Source: Sphingomicrobium sp.
GTDB taxonomy: Bacteria; Pseudomonadota; Alphaproteobacteria; Sphingomonadales; Sphingomonadaceae
Direction of reading: 5' to 3'
Assembly: GCA_036563485.1 (NCBI GenBank)
Contig: DATCMI010000001.1
Location: forward strand, 2,109,501 to 2,173,500
DNA: 64,000 nt
Under the pieces are notes generated by a model. It saw only the letters and a list, made by a program, of their open reading frames with translations. It searched no databases and was not told the DNA's origin. This document shows positions 7,738 to 17,500 of the stretch, piece by piece. A program made the position numbers and the translations under genes. Every line of letters starts with the position of its first letter. The first letter of the stretch is position 1.

Positions 7738-7800
7738 GTCACGCGAGTGAATCGCGTGACGTCAGTCGGGCTCTGCTTGCGCAGCCCCGCTGGCCGGCTC
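7738..7800 (+). repeat. Intergenic repeat family A, copy 1
   Basis: The unit opens with a dyad (GTCACGCG ... CGCGTGAC, 7738-7760), continues GTCAGTCGGGCTC and ends near GCTGGCCGGCT. Related units occur inverted at 8523-8610 and in the same orientation at 13467-13545. Copies 1 and 2 face each other around the SRAP gene. Confidence 0.7.
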
Positions 7801-7815
7801 TCACCATCTCTTCGA

Positions 7816-7852
7816 CATAAGCCGATATTCGCGACGCGAATTTCGTCTTATG
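7816..7852. promoter_or_regulatory. 37-bp near-perfect dyad just upstream of the SRAP gene
   Basis: The left arm (7816-7833) and the reverse complement of the right arm (7835-7852) match at 16 of 18 positions around a single central A at 7834. The inner part is ATTCGCG-A-CGCGAAT and the outer ends are CATAAG and CTTATG. It ends 17 bases before the ATG at 7870, a place where a bound repressor would block expression. It does not look like the direct-repeat LexA box of alphaproteobacteria. Confidence 0.6.
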
Positions 7853-8522: not shown

Positions 8523-8610
8523 GCAGCTTAGGCCGAAGAGCCGTTGAGCACCCGGCCAGCGGGTCGGCGCAGCCGAGCCCGTCTGACGTCACGGCATTTA
8601 CTCCCGTGAG
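8523..8610 (-). repeat. Intergenic repeat family A, copy 2 (inverted)
   Basis: On the minus strand it reads CTCACGGGAGTAAATGCC, then GTGACGTCAGACGGGCTC and GCTGGCCGGGTGCTCA, matching copy 1 block by block. It lies in the 159-base gap between the SRAP gene and the helicase gene; nothing else is visible there. Confidence 0.65.
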
Positions 8611-8649: not shown

Positions 8650-11600
8650 GTGGGACTATTTCCGAAGTGGCGTGGAACGGTTTTCCTTCCAGCTCTTCCG
8701 GATCGCAAAAAGAAGATCGGGCAAAACTGGATCTATCAGGAGGTTTTTCGCGGGATTGTTCGCAAAGCCGAGCTGTCGGATTCGCAGTACAAAGGGCATG
8801 ATGAGTTAGTTCTTCGTGACATCTCTGCGCCCTTCGATCGCCTGCTTGTCCGTCACAAAGGTGCGCGAAGGTTGGAGACTTCGCAGCCAGTGGTCAAAAT
8901 CCACGGTTCCGCAGACGGCGACCATTTGGAACTTAGGTGGGAAGCCCTTGGCCGCCTCGAAACCTATGCCGATACTCCCGAGAAGGTGTTGGCTAGTTGG
9001 ACCAATGCGTTCGCTTTTCGTGAGGAGGACGAGGACGCCGGTTCAGCAGGACTACGCAGGCCCCAAGTTGGCGCACTTCACGCGATCTCTGCCCATTTCG
9101 CAGTGGGCCGCACATTCGACGCCGCTACAGTCGTGCTCCCGACTGGGACCGGCAAAACAGAGACTATGCTTGCGGCGCAAGTTTATCGACGCCCAGCACG
9201 AACACTCGTGCTCGTTCCGAGCGACGCGTTGAGAACTCAGATCGCTCGAAAGTTTGTCTCGCTCGGCGTGCTTCCCACTGCCGAAGTTGTCCCAGAGGAG
9301 TTGCCAGGGCCGCGGGTTGCCGTCGTCAGCGGGGGTTTGAAGAACTTAGACGAGGCTCGAGAGCTCCTGAACGAAGCGAACGTAATTGTTACTCTACCGA
9401 ACACTCTGCGAGCTAGTAATCCTGACGCCCTCGTCGCACTTACGGATGGTTGCTCCGACCTTTTCGTCGACGAGGCGCACCACGTGACAGCTGCTAGCTG
9501 GGCGACGATCAAGTCTCAGTTCGCAGACAAGCGCATCGTTCAGTTCACGGCTACTCCGTTTCGGCGCGATGGGAAGCGCGTCGATGGCAAGATCATCTTC
9601 AACTACAAACTTGGCGATGCTCAAGCGGCTGGCTATTATCGCCCCATCCATCTCCACACCGTCGAGGAGTATGGGGATCAGCACGACCGCGACCGGGCGA
9701 TTGCGATAGCTGCCCTGAAAGCGCTGCGGGATGACTTGTCGGCTGGCTACGACCACTTGATTATGGCTCGCACCGAGACTCGGGAACGTGCGGATGAAGT
9801 AGGAAACATCTATCGCGAACTAGGCGCCGAATTTCATCCCGTGGTTGTGTATTCCGGCACGGGGCAAGCAAGCGCGAACAAGAAGGCGTTAGATGCGATC
9901 CGCTCCAACGCGTCAGACAAGTCGCGGGTCGTTGTTTGCGTCGACATGCTCGGCGAGGGGTTCGACCTGCCTAATCTGAAAATTGCTGCTCTTCATGATG
10001 CTCACAAATCGCTGGCAATTACTCTGCAATTCATCGGGCGATTCACGAGAAAAGGTGCCTCGGGCACCGTCGGCGATGCGACAGTAGTCACGAACATCGC
10101 CGACCCGGTGGCAGAGAAGAAGCTCTCAGATCTGTACGCTGAAGGGGCAGATTGGGATCAGCTAATCCAGCGCCTGAGCGAGGAGCGGATCGAGACGGAA
10201 GTCGACCTGCAGGAGGTGGTGTATGCGCTTCGCGAAAAGGGCGACCTGCACGGGCTCCTTTCGCTCTGGAATCTACGACCCGCACTCTCGGCCCAGTTTT
10301 ACCGAACAACATGCGACGAATGGAATCCTGAAGCATTCCGTTCTGTGCTTCCGAAGAGCGCCGAGGCTTGGTTTTCGCTCAATGAGGAGAGGGCGCTTCT
10401 CGTCGCCGTCGTTTCATTGGAAAGGAAGGTTGGTTGGGGCGACTATGATGACCTTCTAGATAGAACCTACGACCTACTTATCCTGAAGTGGGATAAATCC
10501 GATGGCTCCCTGTGTCTCTTCGCTAGCGACTACAACGGCTTAAACTCCGAGAAGATGGCGCAAGCGGTCACGGACGAAAGCACGGAGTTGGTGAAGGGCT
10601 CGCCGATATTTCGCATCCTGAACAACGTTGAGCTGCCGCTCGTGAAAAGCCTCGGGTCGTCACGGATCGGGGCAATTAGCTTTACCTCGTATTTCGGCCC
10701 AAACGTGACTGAAGGCTTGGCTCTGATCGAGAAAGCTCAGTCCGAACTGAACAACGTAGCTTGCCTTGGATACGAAGACGGAGAGCGTGTCCTTTGGGGC
10801 GGGACGCAGCGTCGAGGTAAGGTCTGGCAGCAAAGACGAGGAACAATCACTGAATGGATGGACTGGGCTGCCCGTACCTTCTCCAAGATTTCTACTGAAA
10901 GCGAGGACGTCGCAAACATCATCAAAGATTTTCTGCGACCAGTGCTCCTCACGAGTCCCCATGAATCGCATCCGATTTCCGTGCAGTGGGGCGAGCAAGC
11001 CCAGATGCGCTTCGGCGATAGGCAGGTGCTCTTTGGGTCACGAGAGGTGCCACTGTTCTTAATCGATCTTGATATCGAGGCAGTGGCCGATGACGGCGCG
11101 ATTGACTTCCGTCTATCGACGGACGGAATCCACGCGACTTATCGACTAACGATCTCCAGTTCCCTGCCGGGCGGATATCGACATGATCAGATTTCGGGCC
11201 CGCCGGTGCAATTCGTCCGACGAGGTGCAGGGGCGGTGCCCATCATCGACTATTTCAAAATTGATCCGCTTATCATGCGCTACGCGGACGGCACTTACTC
11301 GTACAATTGCTATCATATTCCTGCACGGCTCAGTGCAGGTGAATACCCAGTTGAGCGACTTGAGGTCTGGGATTGGAAGGGTATTCCGCTCAATAGAGAA
11401 TCGATGGGTAAGTCGAGGGACGCTGACACCATCCAGTTTAGGGCGTTCGAAAAGATCAACGACGACTTTGAACTCGTTTTCAACGACGATGGTCCCGGGG
11501 AAGCTGCCGACCTAGTTGCCCTCAGGAATGTTGATGAATCGACGATCCGGCTATGTTTAGTCCATTGCAAGAACGCTCATGAGGGGCGGATCTCTGGCGA

Positions 11601-11931
11601 TATCCGCAATTTTTATACATTGTGCGGTCAAGCGCAAAAATCCATTGCTGTTAAGCACAGCGGCATGACGGCGCTCTATCTCGATCTCAAGCGGCGCCAG
11701 GACCTGTGGGGAAAGCAGGGTTACTCAAGATTTCTCAAAGGTGGCATGAAGGAGCTTTCATTCTTCAAGGAAAAAGCGAGAAGATCGAAAGTCGAGTTCG
11801 AAGTCATCATAGCTCAACCAGGCGCCTCCGCGGATTCAATCAGCCACGACGCCCGCAAGCTTATTGCGACAACGGATCTGTTCCTTCGGAAAACGACCGA
11901 GGCAATTTTTCGCGTGGCAGTGTCGCCGTAG
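8650..11931 (+). CDS. SF2 DEAD/DEAH-box helicase with possible C-terminal PD-(D/E)XK-like nuclease
   Basis: The product has 1093 residues. After ~140 N-terminal residues of unknown type comes a ResIII-like SF2 motor: Walker A PTGTGKT with Lys169, DEAH box at 274-277 (VDEAHH), motif III TAT at 300-302, and motif VI QFIGRFTRKG around 460-469. The next ~480 residues are unfamiliar. The C-terminus holds GEAADLVAL (Asp954) followed by LVHCK (Lys974), a spacing that resembles a PD-(D/E)XK nuclease with HxK in place of ExK; this is inference. The start is a GTG at 8650; an overlapping ATG at 8648 opens a different frame of 53 codons. Base composition is clearly lower in GC than the neighbours (28 of 60 in 9361-9420), suggesting transfer. 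It stands alone. Single-gene SF2 helicase-nuclease proteins such as Hna protect alphaproteobacteria against phage, a possible parallel. Confidence 0.85.
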   Translation: MGLFPKWRGTVFLPALPDRKKKIGQNWIYQEVFRGIVRKAELSDSQYKGHDELVLRDISAPFDRLLVRHKGARRLETSQPVVKIHGSADGDHLELRWEALGRLETYADTPEKVLASWTNAFAFREEDEDAGSAGLRRPQVGALHAISAHFAVGRTFDAATVVLPTGTGKTETMLAAQVYRRPARTLVLVPSDALRTQIARKFVSLGVLPTAEVVPEELPGPRVAVVSGGLKNLDEARELLNEANVIVTLPNTLRASNPDALVALTDGCSDLFVDEAHHVTAASWATIKSQFADKRIVQFTATPFRRDGKRVDGKIIFNYKLGDAQAAGYYRPIHLHTVEEYGDQHDRDRAIAIAALKALRDDLSAGYDHLIMARTETRERADEVGNIYRELGAEFHPVVVYSGTGQASANKKALDAIRSNASDKSRVVVCVDMLGEGFDLPNLKIAALHDAHKSLAITLQFIGRFTRKGASGTVGDATVVTNIADPVAEKKLSDLYAEGADWDQLIQRLSEERIETEVDLQEVVYALREKGDLHGLLSLWNLRPALSAQFYRTTCDEWNPEAFRSVLPKSAEAWFSLNEERALLVAVVSLERKVGWGDYDDLLDRTYDLLILKWDKSDGSLCLFASDYNGLNSEKMAQAVTDESTELVKGSPIFRILNNVELPLVKSLGSSRIGAISFTSYFGPNVTEGLALIEKAQSELNNVACLGYEDGERVLWGGTQRRGKVWQQRRGTITEWMDWAARTFSKISTESEDVANIIKDFLRPVLLTSPHESHPISVQWGEQAQMRFGDRQVLFGSREVPLFLIDLDIEAVADDGAIDFRLSTDGIHATYRLTISSSLPGGYRHDQISGPPVQFVRRGAGAVPIIDYFKIDPLIMRYADGTYSYNCYHIPARLSAGEYPVERLEVWDWKGIPLNRESMGKSRDADTIQFRAFEKINDDFELVFNDDGPGEAADLVALRNVDESTIRLCLVHCKNAHEGRISGDIRNFYTLCGQAQKSIAVKHSGMTALYLDLKRRQDLWGKQGYSRFLKGGMKELSFFKEKARRSKVEFEVIIAQPGASADSISHDARKLIATTDLFLRKTTEAIFRVAVSP

Positions 11932-11944
11932 ATTCAAGCAGCTT

Positions 11945-12195
11945 TTGGTCGAGGACCGACCGCATCTTCCGTGACCGCGACGGATGCTTCAGCTTCCGCA
12001 GCGCCTTGTCCTCCGGCTGGCTGCACCAGCCTACGTTCGTCTTCGACTCCGCCTCGATCTACCGAATAGCTCACGCGTAACGCTGAACTGCTGCCCAACC
12101 TCCTCCAGCGTATGATCTGCACCATCCTCGCCAGTGCCCCGCACTGGCTGCGCGTGGAGCATCATGCCGTACCAAGCGCATGCGCAGCGGGGGTT
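11945..12195 (-). pseudogene. Decayed 3' fragment of a divergent rpoD
   Basis: On the minus strand the fragment encodes [17 protein letters not shown] and, after an insertion and frame change, [19 protein letters not shown], the end of sigma-70 region 4. The resident rpoD (13594-15648) ends with nearly the same residues. A weaker block near 12166-12195 matches the codons for LRMRFG. Two insertions of roughly 40 bases and small deletions break the frame, and the stop codon is gone: the match ends at the final Gln codon, 13 bases from the helicase stop. The rest of the gap up to 12353 holds no gene apart from a promoter-like box at 12275-12299. Confidence 0.85.
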
Positions 12196-12274
12196 ATTCC
12201 CGGACGCTCGGCGGCTCGCTGACAGCACCTCAACGCACCACAGCATCGCCTTGCCTGCACGCGGCTTCAGGAGA

Positions 12275-12353: not shown

Positions 12354-12896
12354 ATGAGTGAGCGTATTGCATCGGCCGTGTTCGACAGCCGTGAAGAAGC
12401 CGAGCGCGCGCTGAGCGAGCTGCGGTCGGCCGGCGTCCGCGACGACGCCATCTCCGTCATCGGCCGCCACGGCGAGCATAGCGACACCAGCGGCGGCATT
12501 AACGACGACGATGGCGACGGCGTGAACGGCAGCGGCGCGGTCAAGGGTGCGATCGGCGGCGGCATCGCCGGCGGCCTGCTCGGCCTTGCAGCGCTCGCCA
12601 TTCCCGGCGTCGGCCCGCTCGCCGCTGCCGGCGCGATCGCGGCCTCGGCGGCTCCCGAAGCGGCCGGGCTCGGCGCGGCGATCGGCGCCACTGCCGGCGG
12701 CCTGTCGGGCCTGCTGAGCAAGCATGGCGTCAGCGACGACGATGCCAAATATTATGAAGAGCGCATCAACCAGGGCGGCTATTTCGTGTCGGTCGACGCG
12801 AGCGACGCCGGCGTGCCGATCGAGACGGCGCGCGAGATCCTGTTCCGCAGCGGCGGCCACAATTCGAGCCGCCAGCGGGAGAGCGCCAGCTTTTAA
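12354..12896 (+). CDS. General stress protein 17M-like protein with glycine-rich hydrophobic core
   Basis: The N-terminus MSERIASAVFDSREEAERAL with ELRSAGVRDDAISVIGRH is the pattern of the general stress protein 17M / YflT-like fold. An acidic Asp-rich linker follows, then a long Gly/Ala-rich hydrophobic stretch (about residues 60-115), which could insert in a membrane like a glycine zipper, and a C-terminal DDAKYYEERINQGGYFVSVD module. A strong ribosome site (AGGAGG) precedes the ATG. An EcfG-type promoter lies just upstream and a hairpin terminator just downstream. The biochemical role of this family is unknown. Confidence 0.8.
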   Translation: MSERIASAVFDSREEAERALSELRSAGVRDDAISVIGRHGEHSDTSGGINDDDGDGVNGSGAVKGAIGGGIAGGLLGLAALAIPGVGPLAAAGAIAASAAPEAAGLGAAIGATAGGLSGLLSKHGVSDDDAKYYEERINQGGYFVSVDASDAGVPIETAREILFRSGGHNSSRQRESASF

Positions 12897-12938: not shown

Positions 12939-12973
12939 GGGCCCGGCGGCGAACCGGGCCCTCTTTTCATTTT
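12939..12973 (+). terminator. Rho-independent terminator
   Basis: Stem GGGCCCGG (12939-12946) pairs with CCGGGCCC (12954-12961) over a seven-base loop, followed by TCTTTTCATTTT. It ends the stress gene and could serve the convergent gene as well. Confidence 0.85.
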
Positions 12974-13337
12974 AAAGGCGGGTGCCGGTGGTGCCGCGCG
13001 TGGTGCCCATGTCGCGGTCGATATGATCGTGATGATGGTCGCGGTCGCGGCGCTTGAGGCCGAGCAGGCCGGCAAGGCCGAGGAGGCCGAGCAGGCCCCA
13101 CTTGCCGCTGTCGTCGTCGTCATCATCGCGGTTGCGGTCGCCTTCCGTGGTCGCGCGGTCGTTCGTGTTCTCGGTGGCGGCGACGCTGTTGTCGAGCTGC
13201 GCAACGCTCTGCTGAAGCTCTTCGGCCTGCTGCGCGACCTCGTTCGCCTGGGCGGCGACATTGTCCTGGGCGAGCGCGGCGGCGGGAAGCGCGAGCGCGG
13301 TGGCGGCAAGCAAAGCGTGCTTGATCTTGATGGTCAT
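12972..13337 (-). CDS. Exported protein with WGxxGxxG-type C-terminal membrane tail
   Basis: The 121-residue product has a signal peptide (cleaved after ALA in LPAAALAQ), a helical segment rich in Gln, Ala and Glu, an Asp run, then WGLLGLLGLAGLLGLKRRD and a His/Asp-rich end. A Trp-Gly repeat hydrophobic helix followed by basic residues is the signature of WGxxGxxG-CTERM tails, proposed protein-sorting signals. It therefore probably sits in the inner membrane facing the periplasm. The ribosome site AGGAGG is well placed. A GGAAC-N18-GTT box on the minus strand (13395-13420) is one base too long for the EcfG consensus. No dedicated processing enzyme is adjacent; a rhomboid gene lies 11 kb away. 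Confidence 0.75.
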   Translation of the reverse strand: MTIKIKHALLAATALALPAAALAQDNVAAQANEVAQQAEELQQSVAQLDNSVAATENTNDRATTEGDRNRDDDDDDSGKWGLLGLLGLAGLLGLKRRDRDHHHDHIDRDMGTTRGTTGTRL

Positions 13338-13466
13338 GGTTTTTTTCCTCCTGTTCGTCCTCGCTCGGCAGGGCCCGCGAGGTGCAGGCGGAACAACGGG
13401 CGCCCAAGCACCGCTGTTCCAACCGGCCCGGATCAGGACAGGAGGGGCGGGAGAGGGGGAAGCGCC

Positions 13467-13545
13467 GTCACGGAGTGAATCCGTGACGTCGGACGCGTCT
13501 GCGCAGCGCGGCTTAGGCCGCTCGCTTGCGCGCCGGCCGGCTGAA
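13467..13545 (+). repeat. Intergenic repeat family A, copy 3
   Basis: The unit starts with the perfect dyad GTCACGG ... CCGTGAC (13467-13487), then GTCGGACGCGTCTGCGCAGC and ends GGCCGGCTGA. It fits copy 1 in order and orientation. It lies in the 238-base gene-free gap between the WGxxGxxG protein and rpoD. Confidence 0.65.

Positions 13546-13593: not shown

Positions 13594-13602
<9 letters not shown>
13576..13602 (-). terminator. Hairpin overlapping the rpoD stop codon
   Basis: A perfect 12-bp stem (GATCAGTAAGCC and its complement) with a three-base loop begins inside the last rpoD codons and includes the stop. There is no U-run, so it may stabilise the mRNA end rather than terminate by itself. 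Confidence 0.5.
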
Positions 13603-15648
<2,046 letters not shown>

Positions 15649-15661
15649 AAGTTTTCGCCGC

Positions 15662-17500
15662 TTAGTCGGTGCCGGCAAGCTGCGCCAGCCTCTGTGTCAA
15701 TCCACGCCGCGCCGCCATCAGGCGCTGCTGCTCCTCCAGGGCTTCTTCGGTGAAATCCCGCTTCAGCCGCTCCGTTGCATCCTCCAGCGCGCGGTCGACC
15801 TCCTCGGCCGCCGAAATGATCTCGACGGCTGCGGCCAGATCGCTTCGGGCGCGGTCCGGGTCGCTGTCGCGGCGGGTGAATGAAAAACCCATGGTTCGCT
15901 GGGCGGTTCGGCCCGTCGCTCCATCGGCGCCTAATATGGTGGCAAGGCTGTCGCGATCAAGCGTGGCGCCGGAGAAGGCGGCGTTGACCAGCTCGTCGCG
16001 CATCTCCGCGGTCGACTTGTCGGGGATGGGAAGCGCCGCCAGCTGCTCGCAATGGGCGGGCAGTTCCTCGGGGAAAAAGGCGAAGCCGAGGATCAGGGCG
16101 CGGGCGGTGGGCGCATCGATGCCGGAGCTGGCGATGCCGCGGGCTTCCTGGCCGACCGGCGGGGCAGGGGGCACGAAGCGGCCGTTCTTGAAGCTGCCGC
16201 GGGGGCGCGGGGTAAAGGCGCCGCCTTGGGGTGCGCCCTGCGGCCGGCGCTGCGCGTAGAAGCGATTCAGCCAATCCTCGCGGTACATGCGGCTGAGGTC
16301 CGGGTGCTGGATGGCCGCGGCATGGTCGATGAGGCGCTGCTTGAGCCCGGCCCAGGCTTCGGGCGTGGTCAGCGGCTCGGCCTCGAGCTCGTGGCGCCAC
16401 AGGCGGGCGTCGAGCGGCTCAGGCGTGGCGAGGAGCGCTTCGATCGCCTCGCGGCCGCCGGCCTTGACGACATCGTCGGGATCCTGGCCGGCGGGCAGCT
16501 CGACGAAGCGCAGCGTGCGGTCGGGGCGGAGGTGGGGAAGGGCGCGCGTCGCGGCACGGATCGCGGCCTTGCCGCCGGCGCTGTCGCCGTCGAAGCAGAG
16601 GATCGGCGAGGCGTCGAGGCGCCATAGCCGCTCGAGCTGGGCCTCGGTGAGCGCGGTGCCGTTCGGCGCGACCGCTTCGGAAATGCCGGCGCGGTCGAGC
16701 GCGATGACGTCCATATAGCCTTCGACGACGATCAGGCGCTTGGCCTGGCGGCTCGCGGGCGCGGCGCGGTCGATGTTGTAGAGCGTTCGGCCCTTGTCGA
16801 AGAGCGGCGTGTCGGGGCTGTTGAGATATTTGGGCTCGCCTTGCCCGAGGATCCGCCCGCCGAAGCCGATCACCCGGCCGCGCGGGTCGCGGATCGGGAA
16901 CATCAGGCGGCCGCGGAAGCGGTCGTAGCTGGCGCCGCCGTCCTCGGGCCGGATCAGCATGCCGGTTTCGACCAGCCTGTCCTCGCCGAGCTTGTCGAGC
17001 GCGCTCTTGAGCTTGGCGCGGCCTTCCGGTGCGAAGCCGATGCCGAAGCGCTTCACCGTCTCCGCGTCGATGCCGCGGGTCTTCAGGTAATCGCGGGCCG
17101 TCGCGCCTTCGAGGCCGTGAAGCTGCTCGCCGTACCATGTGGCGACGTCGGCCATAACATCGGTCAGCGAGGCGGTGCGGTCGGCGCGCTCCTTGGCTTG
17201 CGGGTCGGGCGCGGGCACGTCCATGCCCGCCTTGGCCGCAAGCTCCTTCACTGCATCCATGAAGGGCATGCCGCGATGGTCGGTCAGGAAGCGGATCGCG
17301 TCGCCATGCGCGCCGCAGCCGAAGCAATGGTAGAAATGCTTGTCGTCGTTGATGGTGAAGCTTGGCGTCTTCTCGTTGTGGAAGGGGCAGCACGCTTTCC
17401 ACTCGCGCCCCGCGCGGACGAGTTTCACCGAAGGCGCGATGATGGCGCTGAGCACGGTCCGCGCGCGCAGTTCGTCAAGCCAGGCGGGGGAGAGGGTCAC
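15662..17500 (-). CDS. dnaG: DNA primase
   Basis: DnaG makes the RNA primers for chromosome replication. The 612-residue protein has the CHC2 zinc ribbon (Cys38, His41, Cys59, Cys62 in [12 protein letters not shown] and HCFGCG), the RNA polymerase domain, a Toprim motif ([11 protein letters not shown]) and a C-terminal DnaB-interacting region. The start is a GTG at 17500 whose bases overlap the TGA of the upstream GIY-YIG gene, so the two are translationally coupled. It is followed by rpoD with only 13 bases between, as in many bacteria. Confidence 0.97.

Follow-up and report, generated by a model that had tools for sequence, protein, structure and literature searches.

Decayed rpoD 3' ends behind rpoD in Sphingomicrobium suggest displacement of the gene's former end

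The window, the whole stretch of 64,000 nucleotides that was analysed, comes from a Sphingomicrobium genome in a single contig of 2.33 Mb (G000) and contains the sigma factor gene rpoD. Behind this resident gene, and on the same strand, lies a decayed copy of the rpoD 3' end, referred to here as the scar (positions 11945-12201, minus strand), which blastn aligned with the resident gene over 63/75 and 52/62 nucleotides (E 1e-16 and 2e-13; 84% identity each). The direct orientation, and the disruption of the copy by two insertions and small deletions (Table 1), agreed with an earlier sequence-only reading of this DNA. That reading had placed the copy at 11945-12195, ending at the last codon and touching the neighbouring helicase gene. 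The copy does end at the last sense codon (11945), but it is slightly longer than first stated because a short damaged block is present up to about 12201, and 13 bases separate it from the stop codon of the helicase gene. When the window was compared with itself, the other repeats were an 85-bp inverted repeat and repeats of 29 to 42 bp, and no direct repeat of the length of the scar was found besides the rpoD copy.

Table 1. Features around the rpoD end in the window
Feature	Position	Strand	Remarks
DEAD/DEAH helicase gene, probably foreign	8650..11931	+	GC 0.53-0.58 over 9-12 kb
Putative displaced rpoD end, block C (63 bp)	11945..12007	-	Reaches last sense codon
Second insertion, about 36 bp, hairpin-capable	12008..12043	-	Splits blocks B and C
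Putative displaced rpoD end, block B	12044..12117	-	48 bp clean at 12070-12117
42-bp hairpin element, insertion in scar	12119..12160	-	Dispersed repeat of the genus
Putative displaced rpoD end, block A	12161..12201	-	Damaged, short; about codons -60 to -48
YflT-domain protein, presumed incoming DNA	12354..12896	+	PF11181, E 2.3e-8
Small protein, signal-peptide-like start (by eye), presumed incoming DNA	12972..13337	-	Between rpoD and scar
Last 71 codons of resident rpoD, end presumed to be exchanged	13597..13809	-	Genus-wide silent-site decoupling and downstream-neighbourhood link
Resident rpoD	13594..15678	-	694 amino acids as listed, TTG start (true start may be downstream); Pfam sigma-70 regions 1.1 to 4

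A Pfam search with the small protein encoded between rpoD and the scar gave no match. The DNA of its gene (12972-13337) matched a site 3.7 kb behind rpoD in a relative, in the same orientation (G086:C117:5657-5986). Among the matches listed, a YflT match lay 4.1 kb behind rpoD in another relative (G015) and further YflT matches lay elsewhere in relatives, and these matches revealed no donor in relatives for the DNA that separates rpoD from the scar. A palindromic intergenic repeat (GACGTCACG..TTCACTC) occurs at window positions 7739-7822, 8526-8609, and 13464-13490; it has five exact matches in the genome, three of them within 6 kb in the window, and two form an inverted pair flanking an SRAP gene. 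The hairpin inserted in the scar belongs to a repeat dispersed through the genus (GCCAGT, loop region CGGGG, ACTGGC), and four of five further copies that were checked lay directly 3' of a tRNA gene, with the tRNA 3' end forming the outer stem. An Rfam search gave two matches, both at chance level and far under the gathering scores.

On the other side of the scar, the helicase gene is probably foreign, judging from its composition and distribution. The 70 other genomes of the genus gave no match to it at E 1e-30. Among the 396 genomes of the order, 7 others had a match, with the helicase gene and rpoD on separate contigs or at least 73 kb apart. Its nearest plasmid relatives, from Rhizobium and Agrobacterium, were about 62% identical, and its similarity to PbeA and type IV restriction models was weak.

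Re-alignment of the scar with the resident gene gave the same counts as the sequence-only reading for the clean 48-bp block (41/48, with all seven mismatches at third positions) and for the 63-bp end block, in which 10 codons differed, nine of them synonymously and one as a change from F to V. Over both clean blocks, 17 codons differed, 16 of them synonymously. The expected synonymous share per unconstrained change is 0.22, or 0.28 with a transition bias of 4, and the probability of such an excess by chance was 4.8e-10 and 2.0e-8, respectively. These results support the earlier view that the copy diverged silently under constraint before it decayed; both ends appear to have diverged while encoding the same protein, and the decay of one came later. 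A donor in another genus, which had also been suggested, was not supported: rpoD ends from within the genus matched the scar better (G030, 98/111; G033, 97/111; G022, 96/111) than the resident end did (93/111). Ordinary tandem duplication of rpoD, which would make the copy most similar to the gene of its own genome, was not supported, as the resident gene ranked 22nd and 19th of 62 rpoD genes for the two blocks of the copy.

In order to place the scar in the context of the genus, 71 genomes were compared. A full-length match to the rpoD end was present in 61 of them and missing from 10, and two matches were present only in G033 (contigs C18 and C219) and G061 (C1 and C51), which are fragmented assemblies with two rpoD contigs each and perhaps mixed strains. 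This distribution of paralogues, which the earlier reading had named as a check, argues against ordinary duplication. With G008 left out (contig edge), 62 rpoD loci from 60 genomes remained, two each from G033 and G061, and 59 loci had more than 3 kb of downstream sequence. A profile of the rpoD end detected decayed ends downstream of rpoD in 7 of the 62 loci (G000, G075, G034, G064, G032, G082, and, weakly, G036) and no scar in the other 55. All nine profile matches had the same orientation as rpoD and lay +0.52 to +3.28 kb from it, with E values of 3.9e-21 to 0.019.

The genes between rpoD and the scar differed from genome to genome: genes for a YflT protein and the small protein in G000, an FkbM-type methyltransferase in G034, a pyridoxamine-oxidase-like protein in G075, a BLUF protein in G032, a PAS histidine kinase in G036, and a hybrid kinase in G064. 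Scar starts were scattered over the rpoD profile (positions 7, 41, 50, 50, 74, 169, and 193 of 228), with decay blurring the junctions, and the scars of G064 and G036 had no rpoD stop end. In G064, DNA shared with relatives resumed about 24 bp past the scar, in G032 after 50 bp, and in G036 within 0.2 kb; the DNA just past the scars of G000, G034, and G075 was not clearly shared backbone. The DNA before the scars had no strong match in the close relatives compared, among the matches listed. The hairpin occupies the same place in the scars of G000 and G034, and the second insertion is similarly placed in G000 and G075. These scars may therefore go back to a single ancestral one, but the differences between the G000 and G034 end blocks are largely silent, as judged by eye.

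Most scars did not resemble the rpoD of their own genome more closely than that of other genomes. Leaving out mis-registered fits (the end blocks of G075 and G082, and G032), the own rpoD ranked, among 62, 22nd and 19th for G000, 25th and 42nd for G034, 18th for G064, 37th for G036, and 6th for G075. The scar of G082 was nearly identical to its own rpoD (32/33).

The protein encoded by the rpoD end does not vary in the genus; the last 75 residues did not differ among the 63 full-length matches, which came from 61 genomes. Codon comparisons, made on sets of 57, 50, and 56 loci, showed that silent differences in the last 71 codons hardly followed those in the rest of rpoD (r 0.17; 57 loci), whereas end and core were well correlated in control groups of 17 loci each, assembled by record names (r 0.77 in Sphingomonas sensu stricto and 0.81 in a Sphingorhabdus-rich set). 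The mean silent difference in the last 71 codons was 0.34-0.54 in each band of core divergence (57 loci). In 50 genomes, the end had a correlation of 0.18 with the rpoD core and 0.23 with dnaG, the weakest phylogenetic signal among segments of like length; nine dnaG segments gave 0.31-0.52 against the rpoD core, and the rpoD core segments tested were also above the end. Tests of tree topology did not discriminate because the species tree was rejected for all eight segments, seven controls included, although the loss was largest for the end (310 versus 127-236). The codons directly before the presumably exchanged end (about -116 to -77; window 13825-13944) have low silent variation throughout the genus.

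The silent divergence of the end was that of ordinary genes (mean, 0.41, compared with 0.42 for dnaG), so that much of the contrast with the core reflects the low silent divergence of the core, and rate alone proves nothing. The argument that the ends had been swapped because they are more divergent than the core was weakened by this result and was replaced by a test of the downstream neighbourhood. Two loci were counted as sharing if a gene was common to both at a like offset within 1.5 kb behind rpoD. The 42 sharing pairs out of 1,540 had more similar ends than the rest (difference, 0.311 versus 0.422; 0 of 5,000 permutations), with similar core divergence (0.263 versus 0.268), and the adjacent upstream segment of rpoD (-149 to -78) showed no effect of the neighbourhood (3,173 of 5,000 permutations). 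Only 19 of the 56 loci contributed sharing pairs, which leaves relatedness in part uncontrolled by the permutations. In a percentile comparison of 43 sharing pairs, the median was 0.114, and three pairs in which a gene was shared but the ends were very different (G025/G064, G003/G024, and G002/G024) stood at 0.88-0.90. In the first of these, similar hybrid histidine kinase genes (75% identical) directly follow rpoD. On balance, the rpoD end appears to travel with the downstream DNA. It is very improbable that no exchange took place at all, the rpoD end of this genus merely being without the silent-site constraint of the core and the scars being unrelated partial duplications. The ordinary divergence of the end and the close match of the G082 scar to its own gene would fit such an account, but the account was already weakened and leaves aside the link between end and neighbourhood, which the adjacent segment does not share, as well as the fact that most scars are not nearer to the gene of their own genome than to those of other genomes.

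In pooled close pairs, silent divergence jumped between codons -72 and -71, and the bin that gathered the most supported change points was -70 to -61, with 14 of 48 pairs. Integration of mobile DNA into the 3' ends of genes leaves displaced gene ends. One possible reading is that small elements enter rpoD at a single position, about 72 codons ahead of its stop, each bringing a new end and leaving the old one behind, while the recombinase is provided in trans; the jump, the cluster, and the displaced ends themselves would all be in keeping with this. However, relative to 12 conserved-neighbourhood loci, which were hand-picked after the percentile comparison and include one (G065) from outside the sharing list, the excess climbed gradually from about codon -76 to the end, and part of the step at -71 is intrinsic. 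Change points were also supported at -50, -42, -29, and -12. The recombinase gene that an integrase-borne island would have in or beside its insert was not found: neither of the two open reading frames of the window's insert encodes one, and no tyrosine recombinase lay within 100 kb of rpoD among the matches listed, which covered 41 of the 71 genomes. Nor was an intact second end found behind any rpoD among the 63 full-length matches in the 61 genomes. A fixed crossover at codon -71, which the step had suggested, is treated as a rival reading in view of the intrinsic part of the step and the gradual excess, and site-specific integration seems unlikely.

The reading that we prefer, at a probability of roughly 0.6, is that the copy is the displaced former 3' end of the genome's own rpoD, and that a foreign rpoD 3' part came in together with downstream DNA by one-sided, homology-anchored recombination. 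It starts from direct observations, namely, the presence of decayed ends in several genomes, the orientation and position of these ends, the decoupling at silent sites, and the link to the neighbourhood; from these we infer the one-sided mechanism, the uptake of linear DNA, and, for this genome, a scar rather than a resident end that is native. The incoming DNA would consist of the 3' part of the rpoD of another species and the region downstream of it. Homologous recombination would take place in the final part of the resident gene, roughly its last 80 codons, and the other end of the incoming DNA would join without homology, inside or past the old 3' end. The outcome would be a hybrid rpoD with an unchanged protein and one or two new genes behind it. 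The old end would be either lost with its old neighbour, as at most loci, or stranded behind the new genes, as at the seven loci with scars, and would decay there. Events of this kind, exchanging the rpoD end along with downstream DNA, would have recurred in the genus. The scattered starts of the scars, the small inserts, and the lack of a tyrosine recombinase near rpoD among the matches listed for 41 genomes fit one-sided recombination. For an anchor in homologous rpoD sequence, the co-variation of the end with the DNA downstream is indirect evidence; no junction was seen. No near-identical ends were found between pairs of loci (minimum difference, 0.15), and thus no donor was caught.

The sequence-only reading had taken the broken copy as the foreign one. 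The pattern across the genus is in line with the opposite, with the direction for this genome a matter of inference: most probably the copy is the old end, displaced and not imported, and the intact end would have arrived with the intervening DNA. The six nearest relatives by rpoD core all matched the scar slightly better than the resident end, and among the nearest 20, 13 matched the scar better, four matched the resident end better, and three were tied, which is a weak hint that the scar is native. That reading also had the copy touching an imported helicase gene. In its extended form, the broken end would have been imported with the helicase from another lineage and then decayed, the resident rpoD remaining untouched, a history that the 13-base distance from a foreign-looking gene and the silent differences from the resident end would suit. 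Against it, rpoD is not a neighbour of the helicase gene in the 7 other genomes that carry it, no rpoD was among the genes listed for the one plasmid region inspected, the six other scars are in genomes without this helicase, and the nearest relatives favour the scar. Import with the helicase is decidedly unlikely. The helicase was not supported as the vehicle of the copy, given its distance from rpoD in the other carriers and its lack of a match in the genus relatives.

Parallels to the proposed displacement of the former rpoD end have been described. In Rhs genes, core and 3' end evolve separately, and laterally acquired ends displace old ones, which are kept as dissociated fragments (Jackson et al. 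2009, PMC2935791). The rpoD locus is similar in that core and 3' end are decoupled and old ends, displaced downstream in direct orientation at 7 of 62 loci, persist as fragments. Unlike the variable tips of Rhs proteins, the gene here encodes an essential sigma factor, and its C terminus is not altered by exchange; with the last 75 residues identical, exchange would be silent and presumably carried by the neighbouring genes. For type VI secretion system (T6SS) effector genes of Vibrio cholerae, sequential displacement by homology-facilitated illegitimate recombination has been proposed (Kirchberger et al. 2017, PMC5361080). A homologous upstream anchor, an illegitimate downstream join, and the shifting back of older parts would be common to both, but anchor and cargo are effector and immunity genes in that system, whereas here the anchor would be rpoD and the cargo mixed. 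For transfer hotspots that lack mobile elements, exchange has been attributed to homologous recombination within the core genes that flank them (Oliveira et al. 2017, PMC5635113). The rpoD locus resembles these in that a core gene beside a variable region would recombine with it, an integrase being unnecessary; however, clean double crossovers would presumably leave no displaced ends, and seven loci here keep them. Rhs and T6SS displacement therefore appear nearest in their working, and core-gene hotspots would cover a mosaic end without scars. Titles and abstract openings in the open-licence literature contained nothing suggesting rpoD as a site of insertion or integration.

A bolder version would make the rpoD end a docking site of the genus, at which units of one or two genes use the silently recoded end as a recombination arm, insert repeatedly, and strand the previous end, in an integron-like accretion without a recombinase of its own and with an essential gene as anchor; we consider this quite unlikely. 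If the preferred reading of displacement is right, even the gene for the housekeeping sigma factor is mosaic in this genus, its end being exchanged with neighbouring DNA while the protein is unaltered. The scars would then be a readable record of past insertions and would allow tests of how hotspots gain genes without the help of integrases, and caution would be needed where the rpoD end serves in phylogenies or typing schemes.

A second set of 72 named loci, genus members included, was also searched. Two scars in this set were weak, each detected by one of two profiles only (L137 and L134). In a Sphingopyxis assembly (L169), a clear displaced rpoD end was found at +0.56 kb; the first 650 positions after rpoD contain a BrnT toxin gene and what looks by eye like a BrnA-type antitoxin gene, and then the displaced end.
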